A DNA stretch of 33,297 bases from an uncultured Bacteroidales bacterium (GTDB taxonomy: Bacteria; Bacteroidota; Bacteroidia; Bacteroidales; UBA932), in the NCBI GenBank assembly GCA_900320795.1, contig ONTQ01000016.1:1-33297 (forward strand), in the 5' to 3' direction. Positions 7,859 to 11,835 of this stretch are shown here, piece by piece. Within the stretch, counting starts at the first letter, position 1. Every line of letters begins with the position of its first letter. The notes beneath the pieces are model-generated. The model was not told the DNA's origin, searched no databases, and saw nothing but the letters and a program-made list of their open reading frames with translations. A program made the translations under genes and the position numbers.

Positions 7859-9643
7859 TTATTTTCTTCCCAGGCGGTCGGCCACGAAGCCCATGCGACG
7901 GGCAAATTCCTTGCGGCCGATGAAGGAGAGGATATCAGCGATTCCCAAACCGCTGGCGGCTCCCGTGAGTGCCAGCCGCAGGGTGTTCATCACCTTGCCC
8001 ATGGGGTACTCTTCCTTTTTGATGTATGCTTCGATGGCCGTTTCCAGATGCTCCTTGTCCATGGCGCCCCGGTAACTGTCCAAATCGTCGAACCCAAAGG
8101 CGGCGCCGGAGATGTACTGGGTGAGTTCGAAGCAGTATTCGTAGTGGTCTTCTTTCCAGAACTTGTCTACGTCCTTGGCCAGGAAAGGAGCCGTGAGACT
8201 GTCGTCGAACACCTTGGCGCGCGGGTCCACCGGACGGTTGGGATCCACAGGCTTGGAAGGAAGGCCGGCTCCGGCCTTTACACCATAGGTCTCAAATTCC
8301 TGCGGGGAAACGAAAAGGTAGGCGGCAATGTCCCAGAAGTCGGCCACGAAGGTGGCACGTTCCTTGACCAGGTTTACAACGGCTTCCACATATTCGCGCG
8401 TGAAGATGTGATTCTTGAAATCGGCCCCAAAACCTTCGAATTGAGCGCCGGCGGTGAGGGCGTTGCAAGGGCAGTCCACCACTTTCATTCCATGCTCTTC
8501 CAGAACCGGGACGAAGAGGGCCGTCAGCTCCTGTGTCGTTTTCATCCGCAGGTATTCTTTGTTATACCATTTGGCCTTGTCCGGATTGAACTTGGCCCCG
8601 GCCTTCTGGACTTTGTCCAGGGAGAAAGCCTGTACCAGTTCTTCCATGGTGAACAGCTCCCGTTCATCTCCGGGATTCCATCCCAGCATGGCCAGCATAT
8701 TCACGAACGCCTCCGGGAAATAACCGTCTTCGCGATAGCCGCGGGAGACTTCTTCCGTCACCGGGTTCTTCCAACGAAGCGGGAATACCGGGAAGCCCAG
8801 TTTGTCACCGTCGCGTTTGGAGAGTTTTCCGTTGCCGATGGGTTTGAGCAGCAGAGAAAGATGGGCGAAGCGCGGCATGGTGTCTTTCCAGCCGAAAGCT
8901 TCATACAGGAGATAGTGAAGGGGCAGTGAAGGCAGCCATTCCTCTCCTCGGATGACCTCGGTAATCTCCATCAGGTGGTCGTCCACGATGTTGGCGAGGT
9001 GGTAGGTAGGGAGTTCATCGGCCCGCTTCCAGAGCACTTTGTCGTCCAGGGTATCGGTATTTACTTCCACATGACCGCGGATGAGGTCTTCCATTTCCAC
9101 GATGCGGTTTACCGGCATCTTGAAACGGATGGTCCAGTCGGTCGTCGTCTCCAGGAGGTTTTTCACTTGCTCCGCGTCCAGGGTGAGCGAATTGCGAAGA
9201 CCGCCCCGGGTGGCGGCATTGTACATGAAGGTCTCTTTGGCGGCTTCCGCTTCTGCTCGGCGCCGGTCCAGTTCTTCGGCTGAATCGAAGGCATAGTAGG
9301 CCCATCCGGCGGCCACCAGCTGCTCTGCATACTGACGGTAGATCGGACGCCGCTGACTTTGCCGGTACGGAGCATGGGGATGACGGGCCGATGCCGTTTC
9401 CACCACCTTTCCGTTCTCATCGACACCCTCGTCCGGGATGATGCCGCACCAGGAAAGGGCTTCGATGATATACTGTTCCGCTCCGGGAACAAACCGGTGG
9501 GAATCCGTATCTTCAATGCGGATGATAAAGTCACCACCCTTCTGTTTGGCATAGAGGTAATTATAAAGTGCCGTACGAACACCGCCCATATGAAGCGGGC
9601 CGGTGGGAGACGGGGCAAATCTTACGCGGGTTCTTTTTTCCAT
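7859..9643 (-). CDS. gltX: Glutamate--tRNA ligase (GluRS), extended form
   Basis: GluRS charges tRNA-Glu. The class I signatures are present: the HIGH-type PSPTGPLHMGG at 11-21 and the KMSKS-type KLSKR at 273-277, with the family marker RIEDTD at 42-47. At 594 residues it is longer than the usual 460-510. The extra length is partly a short insertion near residues 76-92, just before the conserved PYRQS segment, and partly a Pro/Asp-rich stretch in the anticodon-binding half (SKPVDPNRPVDPRAK). GluRS rather than GlnRS is supported by overall pattern. The gene is monocistronic, divergent from folP and convergent with divIC without a spacer. Confidence 0.95.
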   Translation of the reverse strand: MEKRTRVRFAPSPTGPLHMGGVRTALYNYLYAKQKGGDFIIRIEDTDSHRFVPGAEQYIIEALSWCGIIPDEGVDENGKVVETASARHPHAPYRQSQRRPIYRQYAEQLVAAGWAYYAFDSAEELDRRRAEAEAAKETFMYNAATRGGLRNSLTLDAEQVKNLLETTTDWTIRFKMPVNRIVEMEDLIRGHVEVNTDTLDDKVLWKRADELPTYHLANIVDDHLMEITEVIRGEEWLPSLPLHYLLYEAFGWKDTMPRFAHLSLLLKPIGNGKLSKRDGDKLGFPVFPLRWKNPVTEEVSRGYREDGYFPEAFVNMLAMLGWNPGDERELFTMEELVQAFSLDKVQKAGAKFNPDKAKWYNKEYLRMKTTQELTALFVPVLEEHGMKVVDCPCNALTAGAQFEGFGADFKNHIFTREYVEAVVNLVKERATFVADFWDIAAYLFVSPQEFETYGVKAGAGLPSKPVDPNRPVDPRAKVFDDSLTAPFLAKDVDKFWKEDHYEYCFELTQYISGAAFGFDDLDSYRGAMDKEHLETAIEAYIKKEEYPMGKVMNTLRLALTGAASGLGIADILSFIGRKEFARRMGFVADRLGRK

Positions 9644-9662
9644 ATTTTCTGCATTTGCACTG

Positions 9663-9670
9663 CAAAGATA
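9663..9670 (-). promoter_or_regulatory. -7 box of the gltX promoter
   Basis: TATCTTTG on the minus strand ends 19 bases before the gltX ATG. It is back to back with the folP -7 box, 12 bases away on the other strand, so the two promoters may compete for polymerase. Confidence 0.65.
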
Positions 9671-9682
9671 GTGATTTTTTCC

Positions 9683-9690
9683 TACCTTTG
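9683..9690 (+). promoter_or_regulatory. -7 box of the folP promoter
   Basis: TACCTTTG matches TAnnTTTG and ends six bases before the folP ATG at 9697. With the usual spacing the transcript would start two to four bases before the start codon. Confidence 0.6.
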
Positions 9691-9696
9691 CCGTGC

Positions 9697-10557
9697 ATGG
9701 ACAGGAAGATTCATATCATGGGCATCGTGAATCTCACCGGAGATTCGTTTTATGCCGGCAGCCGGACCGACGCCGGCAGCGCACTTGCCCGTATTCGACA
9801 AATGCAGGCTGACGGGGCCGATGTCATTGACCTCGGTGCCTGTTCCACCCGTCCGGGTGCTCCGCAGCCTTCCCTGGAGGAAGAGTGGTTTCGCCTGGAA
9901 CCCGTCCTGCAGCAGTTGCCCGGAAAGACGGAGGGGGGTTCCGGAACATTTGCCCGTACAGGGTCGCGAAGCGACGTGGAGGAAACCCCCTCCGTCTTTC
10001 CGGCCCTGTCCATTGACACCTACAGGAGCGAGATTGTCCGCCGGGCTTACGACCTTATCGGCCCTTTTATGGTGAACGACATCAGCGCCGGGGAAATGGA
10101 CCCGGAAATGCTGGAGACGGTGGGCCGCCTGGGCCTTCCCTATGTGGCCATGCACATGCGCGGCACGCCGGAAACCATGCAGCAATTCACGCAGTATGGT
10201 GACATCATAGCGGATATAAAGGCGTATTTCCGGGACTTTGCGTTAAAGGCGGCCGATGCCGGAATAGCCCATTGGCTCCTGGACCCGGGTTTTGGCTTTT
10301 CCAAAACGCTGGAACAGAACTGGGAGTTATTGCGGCGGTTGGAGGAATTGCTTGAACTGAACCGGCCCATCCTGGTGGGAGTGTCCCGTAAGAGCATGAT
10401 TTATAAAGCGTTGGGCATCACTCCCGAAGAAGCGATGCCCGCAACGCAAGTAGTTCAGTATGCGGCTTTGCAGCGGGGGGCCAGCTGGCTTCGCGTGCAC
10501 GACGTTGCCGAAGCCGTCCGAACCGCCCTGCTCTTCACCCACTGCTGTGGCGCCTAA
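9697..10557 (+). CDS. folP: Dihydropteroate synthase (FolP) with an in-frame palindromic insertion
   Basis: FolP condenses p-aminobenzoate with the pterin pyrophosphate in folate synthesis and is the sulfonamide target. The 286-residue protein has loop 1 at MGIVNLTGDSF (8-18), loop 2 at STRPGA (50-55), SIDT at 105-108, the VNDIS strand and the C-terminal VGVSRKSM. Two oddities stand out. Loop 1 reads LTGDSF where nearly all family members have a Pro (TPDSF). Residues 76-102, between the loop-2 helix and SIDT, are encoded by an 84-bp inverted-repeat element absent from the family pattern as I know it. The ATG at 9697 follows the -7 box by six bases; the ATG at 9718 would lose the first strand. 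No stop or frameshift interrupts the gene. Confidence 0.93.
   Translation: MDRKIHIMGIVNLTGDSFYAGSRTDAGSALARIRQMQADGADVIDLGACSTRPGAPQPSLEEEWFRLEPVLQQLPGKTEGGSGTFARTGSRSDVEETPSVFPALSIDTYRSEIVRRAYDLIGPFMVNDISAGEMDPEMLETVGRLGLPYVAMHMRGTPETMQQFTQYGDIIADIKAYFRDFALKAADAGIAHWLLDPGFGFSKTLEQNWELLRRLEELLELNRPILVGVSRKSMIYKALGITPEEAMPATQVVQYAALQRGASWLRVHDVAEAVRTALLFTHCCGA
9920..10003 (+). repeat. 84-bp palindromic element inside folP
   Basis: Two 23-base arms, 9920-9942 and 9981-10003, are inverted copies with a single mismatch. The 38-base centre holds a second perfect hairpin, GTCGC-GAA-GCGAC (9963-9975). The element is 84 bp, exactly 28 codons, and stays in frame with folP. It is free of stops in at least two plus-strand and two minus-strand frames. 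It resembles in design the palindromic elements that insert within genes of Rickettsia (RPE), but I see no sequence kinship. No second copy was noticed in the window. Confidence 0.8.
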
Positions 10558-10560
10558 TTA

Positions 10561-10578
10561 CCTGTGAGACAGGCTTTT
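10561..10578 (+). terminator. Weak terminator-like hairpin after folP
   Basis: CCTGT-GAG-ACAGG followed by CTTTT lies three bases after the folP stop. The stem has only five base pairs. A neighbouring palindrome, CACTGATTATCAGTG (10585-10599), covers the ftsZ stop codon and may serve the opposite strand. Confidence 0.35.
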
Positions 10579-10593
10579 ATCTGCCACTGATTA

Positions 10594-11835
10594 TCAGTGC
10601 TTGCGGCGGATGGCCGGGATGTTTTCCAGATCGGCCTTCTTCTCACCCGGCCCTACGCAGAGAACCGGCTTTTTCTCCGTGGCAAAGTTGTAGTACTTGG
10701 CATTGTCGGAGTTGTTGTAGCCGATCTTGATGGTGTCGGTTCCTCCGGGGAGTTTGACCTCGTCTCCGTGTGAGGGCGTGTTCCATTCGAATCCTTCGTC
10801 GATGATGACCAGATTCCCCAGGTCCTTGTTGAGGCCCAGGCCACCCAGATCCATCTGGAAGCCCGTGACGATGGCCGTAATGCGCACGTGGTCGCCGAAT
10901 TCGGGATCGTCTTCCCAGATGATGCCTTTCTTGAAATGATTGGCATCTCCGGTATATTCGGTGATCATGTCGTCAATCTTTTCCAGGTCGCTCATCTTGG
11001 CGCCGCTCTCGTTGTTGCCCGTCGTGATGTTGATGAGAACGTTCTTGGCCGTCTTGAGGTCGAAGTCGTTCAGCAGGGGACTTTCAAAAGCGCCTTTCAC
11101 GGCATCCTGGAGGCGGTTGGGGCCTGTTCCTTCGCCGCTGCCCATGAGGGCCATGCCGCTGTTGCGCATCATCTTGCAGACATCCTGGAAGTCCACATTG
11201 ATGTACCCGTGACGGCTGATGACCTCGATGATGCCGCGGACAGCCGTGGCCAGGACCTCATCGGCCTTGGGAAAGGCTTCCTGGATGAGGGTGTCGCCAA
11301 AGAACTGGTAGAGCTTCTCGTTGTTGATAATCAGAAGGGAATCCACATTTTTCTCCAGTTCATGGATGCCGTCCACGGCCTTGGACTGGGATTCATTGCC
11401 TTCGTTCTTGAAGGGGATGGTCACCACCGCCACGGTGAGGATGCCGCGGTCCTTGGCCATCTTGGCGATGACCGGAGAAGCGCCCGTTCCGGTACCGCCG
11501 CCCATGCCGGCGGTGATGAAGAGCATCTGGGTACCGCAGTCCAGCACTTTCCGGGCAATCTCATCCTGGGCTTCGAGGGCAGCGTTGCGTCCGGCGGTAG
11601 GATCCGTTCCCGCGCCCAGGCCGTTCTGTCCCATCTGGATTTTGACGGGGACTTCGCTGCTCTGCAGGGCCTGTGCATCGGTGTTGCAGACGATGAAACT
11701 GCATCCCTGAATGTTCTGACGGTACATATAATTCACGGCATTGCAACCGCCGCCGCCTACACCCACTACTTTGATGATGGCGTTCTCCTGTGTCCAGTCG
11801 TTGGGGACAATGTTGGTGTCGATGTCGTAGCTCAT
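10594..11835 (-). CDS. ftsZ: Cell division protein FtsZ
   Basis: FtsZ is the tubulin-like GTPase that forms the Z ring. The 413-residue protein has VVGVGGGGCNAVN near 23-35, the tubulin signature GGGTGTG at 112-118 and the synergy loop NVDFQD at 213-218, whose Asp activates GTP hydrolysis in the next subunit. A variable linker of roughly 70-80 residues ends in the conserved peptide LENIPAIRRKH (403-413), the docking site for FtsA. The start lies three bases after the ftsA stop. It is the last gene of the dcw cluster; the next gene, folP, is convergent with a 36-base spacer. Confidence 0.98.
   Translation of the reverse strand: MSYDIDTNIVPNDWTQENAIIKVVGVGGGGCNAVNYMYRQNIQGCSFIVCNTDAQALQSSEVPVKIQMGQNGLGAGTDPTAGRNAALEAQDEIARKVLDCGTQMLFITAGMGGGTGTGASPVIAKMAKDRGILTVAVVTIPFKNEGNESQSKAVDGIHELEKNVDSLLIINNEKLYQFFGDTLIQEAFPKADEVLATAVRGIIEVISRHGYINVDFQDVCKMMRNSGMALMGSGEGTGPNRLQDAVKGAFESPLLNDFDLKTAKNVLINITTGNNESGAKMSDLEKIDDMITEYTGDANHFKKGIIWEDDPEFGDHVRITAIVTGFQMDLGGLGLNKDLGNLVIIDEGFEWNTPSHGDEVKLPGGTDTIKIGYNNSDNAKYYNFATEKKPVLCVGPGEKKADLENIPAIRRKH

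Follow-up and report, generated by a model that had tools for sequence, protein, structure and literature searches.

Protein-coding palindromes of gut Bacteroidales whose arms match within each copy and whose core occurs in both directions at orthologous sites

How does a long palindrome come to lie in frame inside an intact gene, and what keeps its two arms matched? The question is raised by folP of an uncultured Bacteroidales bacterium (assembly GCA_900320795.1, contig ONTQ01000016.1), carried on a stretch of 33,297 nucleotides that is called here the window. The initial annotation, made from the letters of this stretch, had described an 84-bp in-frame palindrome with 23-base arms, one arm mismatch and a nested perfect hairpin, contributing exactly 28 codons to an intact dihydropteroate synthase (DHPS). 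This description proved accurate (Table 1). We consider it probable that the folP element belongs to a family of protein-coding palindromes restricted to one lineage, in which template switching during replication keeps the arms matched and flips the core.

Table 1. Features of the folP palindrome in the window.
Feature	Position	Strand	Remarks
folP, dihydropteroate synthase, host gene	9697..10557	+	286-aa intact ORF; Pfam PF00809 (Pterin_bind), E 9.2e-63; PDB DHPS matches
Entire palindromic element, 84 nt = 28 codons in frame in folP	9920..10003	+	codons fully inside: GKTEGGSGTFARTGSRSDVEETPSVFP
Left arm of the element, copy-specific sequence, 23 nt	9920..9942	+	
Right arm of the element, 23 nt, pairs with the left arm bar one mismatch	9981..10003	+	
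28-nt conserved core ATTTGCCCGTACAGGGTCGCGAAGCGAC	9948..9975	+	opposite direction at the folP site of the closest relative found
Inner hairpin GTCGC-GAA-GCGAC, perfect, 5 bp	9963..9975	+	compensatory variants in relatives: GTTGC/GCAAC, GTGGC/GCCAC

The arms of the folP element are 96% complementary and separated by 38 nt. Stop codons are absent from all six frames of its 84 nt, which is more than the four at least that had been claimed. As RNA the element folds to -54.1 kcal/mol (z -4.8), a stability equalled by none of 200 shuffles, and as DNA its fold has a z of -5.9. It is the strongest of six inverted repeats of 16 nt or longer in the window (arms no more than 220 nt apart), the other five being 71-84% complementary or, just past a tRNA gene, 94% across 16 nt. 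The latter belongs to the segment 33121-33230, in which tRNA-His is followed by the repeat with A/T tails, probably a terminator. Across window positions 9600-10600 nothing exceeded the Rfam gathering score, and the sub-threshold matches over the element were mostly microRNA-type hairpins scoring far below it. In the protein, the insert precedes the SIDT strand, as had been stated in the initial annotation, which held that the DHPS family has no such segment there. Aligned with PDB 1aj0, the E. coli enzyme, residues 75 and 104 of the window protein fall opposite chain residues 86 and 93, so that this turn has 28 residues in the window protein versus 6 in 1aj0. From TIM-barrel topology, the turn presumably lies on the barrel face opposite the active site.

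The suspicion that the element belongs to an undescribed, gene-tolerant repeat family of Bacteroidota is supported by copies elsewhere in the same genome and in relatives, most of them in long open reading frames and mainly in one register. The window genome holds four copies, three of which were found with a 124-base query that matches them in its middle part. Allowing three mismatches, the core pattern occurs in 18 of 151 genomes of the genus, the window's own included, at 1 to 15 copies per genome; the reversed pattern, used as a control, gave no match in the same 151 genomes. At up to two mismatches the core is found in 8 of 249 genomes of the family (2 of 25 genera), and with one mismatch in 1 of 295 genomes across the order, which is the window's own. 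At least 117 named records contain it. The 80 matches listed are all titled Bacteroidales or Bacteroidia, and many of these name ruminant gut as their source. Viral contigs contained no exact match to the core pattern, nor did phage and plasmid records match the 94-bp stretch compared with them. The 156 distinct copies examined reduce to 83 independent sites by flank homology. Multiple dispersed copies would fold into a long hairpin, as judged by arm pairing; folding energies were computed for the window copy.

No transposition event was seen, and no mobilising enzyme is tied to the 28-nt-core family. Matches to the Y1 transposase (PF01797) occur in 19 of 20 genomes chosen as carriers (G153 and G270 being counted in through folP) and in 13 of 20 picked from genomes in which the core was not matched. 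This enrichment is weak (Fisher p 0.04), and none of 30 fetched Y1 loci has the core nearby. On these figures a RAYT/Y1 transposase was not adopted as the mover. Seven loci (L014, L022, L037, L063-L065 and L076) form a subfamily in which the core takes variant forms, ATTTACCCGTACTGGGTCGC among them, and the inner flanks are GCGACC/AGGGAGC; its members often lie outside long ORFs, and some are weakly paired. At L133, two elements of this agggagc type stand in tandem with a common arm, resembling a clustered repeat.

The relation to genes is close. Long ORFs (more than 500 nt around the core) hold 125 of the 156 copies. The consensus element is free of stops in six of six frames. For any one frame, 127-145 of the 156 copies are open, compared with 42% for base shuffles. 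Being open in every frame, the element is able to sit in genes. The codon registers of the 125 copies in ORFs are distributed 49, 70 and 6, one register set being nearly empty, and the phase is identical in either core orientation for 90 of 101 copies whose sense strand was judged by ortholog identity. In this main phase the two core orientations encode the consensus peptides PEGDTLSGAFARTGSRSDAEERVSPS and PEGDTLSSASLRDPVRANAPERVSPS, and the main register yields a short hydrophilic loop. It appears that selection leaves the main codon register. All of ten hand-picked host proteins match Pfam families, nearly all of them different genes; among the ten are MraW methylase, a Mur ligase, cysteinyl- and methionyl-tRNA synthetases, UvrA and ATP synthase subunits.

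Elements of the family are about 78-84 bp long and combine a nearly invariant middle with variable arms. The 28-nt core was compared among 57 main-type sites, picked from the 83 as those whose right flank begins with G, whose offset is zero and whose pairing score is at least 10. Its variation is mainly limited to two positions that are unpaired in the RNA fold and to one covarying inner-stem pair, which is C-G or T-A, or G-C in two genomes of another genus. The arms vary from copy to copy yet are mostly complementary within one copy; the arm covariation that had been put forward as a check is thus present. In 90 unfiltered copies the mean pairing score is 19.1, versus 6.0 for 200 swaps of arms between copies and 4.9 after shuffling, where the maximum is 10. 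The best swap reached 20, which 41 of the 90 copies exceed. Three copies (L020, L024 and L032) are barely paired, with a score of 4. At positions 6-25 a weak consensus, of 0.2-1.1 bits per position, runs through the arms of the 57 main-type sites. Further out, at stem positions 26-31, sequence is hardly conserved and 40-79% of the 57 sites are paired against about 25-29% expected, an excess that is an upper estimate since choosing the subset for pairing inflates its percentages.

Arms differ at 10.3 of 20 positions within one genome and at 11.4 between genomes. For the core the differences, out of 28 positions, are 0.80 within a genome, 1.32 at orthologous sites and 1.60 between genomes overall. 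None of 1000 label shuffles was as extreme as the within-genome core similarity, to which shared ancestry of genomes can contribute. This greater likeness of cores within genomes suggests turnover, or copying between cores.

Comparison of orthologous sites adds a feature that was absent from the initial annotation, namely an invertible core flanked by copy-specific arms. Homologous protein flanks on both sides defined 28 ortholog groups with 160 pairs, which are not independent. One of the groups consists of two elements in tandem at the single locus L133, and in another (L151/L128) the flanks are 50% identical. Both core orientations occur in 18 of the 28 groups, and over the 160 pairs the orientation is the same in 90 and opposite in 70. 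Five pairs with collinear flanks carry the element on opposite strands in blastn: L154/L130 (78 bp, 97%), L189/L180 (77 bp, 99%), L137/L157 (82 bp, 98%), L187/L234 (89 bp, 93%) and L156/L109 (88 bp, 89%). After reverse complementation, L154 and L130 are identical at 76 of 78 positions. In two of the five pairs blastn also reports one opposite-strand match of 45-48 bp at another place. The sixth pair compared, L137/L004, has the same orientation.

The arms change together, and the core is conserved and often reversed. Over all ortholog pairs, arm differences come to 7.8 of 20 positions and core differences to 1.3 of 28. In the stems, 872 cells changed on both sides and still pair, 381 of them by transversion, and 596 changed otherwise. 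The folP site itself provides an example. In G153, the closest folP relative of the window among 300 genomes (84% DNA identity), the core is reversed between the same arms, with two compensated changes and with the single arm mismatch retained in both genomes. Since this mismatch was kept through a core inversion and two compensated changes, correction of the arms is incomplete. Compensated changes are not clustered: the 56 ortholog pairs (of 160) used for this test show 59 adjacent ones where 56.3 would be expected. Copying of several bases as one block is thus neither demonstrated nor favoured. Where the arms of an ortholog pair are very unlike, the two copies may in some cases be separate insertions at one hotspot.

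Relatives whose folP is free of the 28-nt-core element were also found, in keeping with what had been expected of a mobile repeat. The anchors flanking the insert are 84 nt apart in the window, versus 15 in L249 and 12 in L252; a small palindrome is present at the L249 site. The same folP position is occupied in relatives by other palindromes, some with arms that extend into the codons with which the SIDT strand begins. One of these belongs to a third family, larger and GC-rich, present at the folP site of L244, L246, L248, L250 and L254-L256, whose arms reach conserved folP codons. Its anchors are 150-207 nt apart in the three loci measured (L244, L246 and L256). The middle of this family, about 105 nt, has opposite orientations in two sets of loci, L244, L246 and L256 on the one hand and L248, L250, L254 and L255 on the other, the best opposite-strand match being L250/L256 (91.5% over 106 nt). 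L251 matched none of six of the seven third-family loci and shares an 18-nt match with L250. At the folP turn of L253 there is a direct peptide repeat, SYTKPAPSVYEP / SYTKSASSVYEP.

A second family, built on the core GCTAAAAAGAAGGCCGATGCC, has the same architecture with copy-specific matched arms (L323-L338, L259 and L240). It comes from other genomes of the genus, G132, G139 and G140, and from one named record. Its core pattern gave 23 matches, 16 with paired arms (score 13-27) and 7 scoring 1-4. The second and third families indicate that the architecture and the inversion are not limited to one core. At L106, a core of the GCTAAAAAGAAGGCCGATGCC family directly adjoins an element of the first family, forming a composite palindrome.

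Arm co-change and core reversal would both be explained if a replicating hairpin lets the polymerase switch template between its arms. A mutation in one arm would then be copied into the other, and the stem could creep into adjoining gene sequence. A switch across the loop would flip the core with length and frame unchanged. The conservation of the core at the DNA level could reflect recognition by a protein, or re-copying from other copies. Precedents exist: in yeast coding genes template switching gives arm homogenisation and spacer inversion (PMC8604942), and loop inversion by template switching is described for RNA genes (PMC8794818). The spacers inverted in yeast, of 2-5 bp, are much shorter than those of the Bacteroidales elements, which counts against the parallel. 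At the orthologous sites arm homogenisation and spacer inversion are both found as template switching predicts, and the predicted clusters of multi-base changes are not. Template switching is thus the putative cause of the two observed behaviours.

These data can be read in other ways. Perhaps the core alone is mobile, the arms being made at insertion by inverted copying of one target flank, which would give every copy its own matched arms. This would fit arms that vary within a genome nearly as much as between genomes while the cores hardly do, stems that enter ordinary gene sequence (as where arms of other families run into the SIDT codons of folP in relatives), and a second family in which a different core is likewise framed by copy-specific matched arms. 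It is harder to reconcile with the weak common consensus of arms at the main-type sites and with the many orthologous copies that retain related arms drifting in step, and we regard it as unlikely, though with a real chance of being right. Developed further, it would describe mobile DNA of a new kind, where nothing but the short conserved loop is handed on, arms are drawn from the target by inverted copying and the loop keeps flipping in place. Housekeeping proteins would then carry a two-state surface peptide, and several unrelated loops would share the route within the genus; we offer this tentatively, as a possible but rather unlikely picture. That the hairpin itself is under selection, as a folded mRNA or DNA that controls translation, for example, or forms a protein-binding cruciform, seems clearly unlikely. 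The stem is strongly conserved by compensated change, and the core is conserved with a covarying inner stem. However, the stem mismatches (G.T 30, A.C 44 and other 48 of 1860 cells, in 93 of 101 elements passing the pairing filter, with the sense strand assigned by ortholog identity) show no excess of G.U over A.C on the coding strand. Selection for an mRNA hairpin, of the kind that according to the initial annotation may affect translation of folP, is accordingly disfavoured and unlikely to maintain the stems. The hosts, moreover, are unrelated genes, the core is absent at up to three mismatches from 133 of the 151 genus genomes, and selection for structure alone does not predict core inversion.

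Inversion by a site-specific recombinase, in the manner of phase-variable invertons, would account for both orientations at orthologous sites and for a core conserved as a recognition site should be. We judge it very unlikely because the inverted repeats bounding the core vary from site to site and hence provide no common recombination site; inversion via common end sites was rejected on account of these differences. It is scarcely credible that the family is an assembly artefact, or a local protein insertion without a DNA-level repeat. Among the matches listed, the core-bearing named records are indeed titled as uncultured or metagenome-assembled genome contigs, but sites and arms are common to assemblies with different project prefixes, and the two orientations encode different peptides from one DNA core. 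Template switching acting on a dispersed family of coding palindromes is the reading that we prefer.

On this reading, protein-coding palindromes extend to gut Bacteroidales, and template switching would be the mutational process acting on them at dozens of sites that can be compared. The correction of arms, the growth of stems and the inversion of loops can be followed together in real genes, which makes it testable how coding palindromes spread and persist. A caution follows: "compensatory" changes in a stem need not indicate RNA function.

No description of this Bacteroidales family was found in titles and abstract openings from open-licence PMC text, in which broad topics were sampled in part. 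Among known systems, REPINs and REP-BIME with their RAYT transposase are likewise short, dispersed inverted-repeat hairpins, probably non-autonomous. According to PMC3116915, the REP sequences that compose REPINs in P. fluorescens are primarily extragenic and define the repeat by their own conserved 16-mers, whereas the Bacteroidales elements have variable arms around a conserved middle and mostly lie inside genes (125 of 156 in long ORFs). Invertons have common recombination sites at both ends; the arms of the Bacteroidales family vary by site. The Correia elements of Neisseria, a kind of miniature inverted-repeat element, are reported to invert and are placed mainly upstream of genes (as cited in PMC10969869); they are set beside the Bacteroidales family by description rather than by sequence. 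Coding palindromes in mitochondria of Nematomorpha are also inverted repeats within coding genes whose arms evolve in concert, but the passages of PMC6649704 considered present them neither with a shared core nor as a family of dispersed repeats.

Coding palindromes of proteins have been described in Rickettsia and, going by the reference list of PMC2229807, also in Wolbachia and Methanocaldococcus. As PMC2229807 and PMC10969869 describe them, the Rickettsia palindromic elements are repeats that form hairpins and occur in frame within unrelated genes. The Bacteroidales copies are also dispersed, hairpin-forming and in frame in unrelated genes, with relatives that have no insert, and the likeness to the Rickettsia elements proposed in the initial annotation therefore seems sound as to kind. 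By description, the Rickettsia elements measure 105-150 bp, and core inversion is not mentioned in the excerpts of these two papers. The Bacteroidales elements measure about 78-84 bp; every copy has matched arms of its own, and between orthologous sites the core is inverted. The quasipalindromes attributed to template switching in yeast (PMC8604942) share arm homogenisation and spacer inversion in coding DNA. They are, however, single repeats with spacers of 2-5 bp, while the Bacteroidales elements constitute a repeat family with an invertible middle of about 38 nt at many sites.
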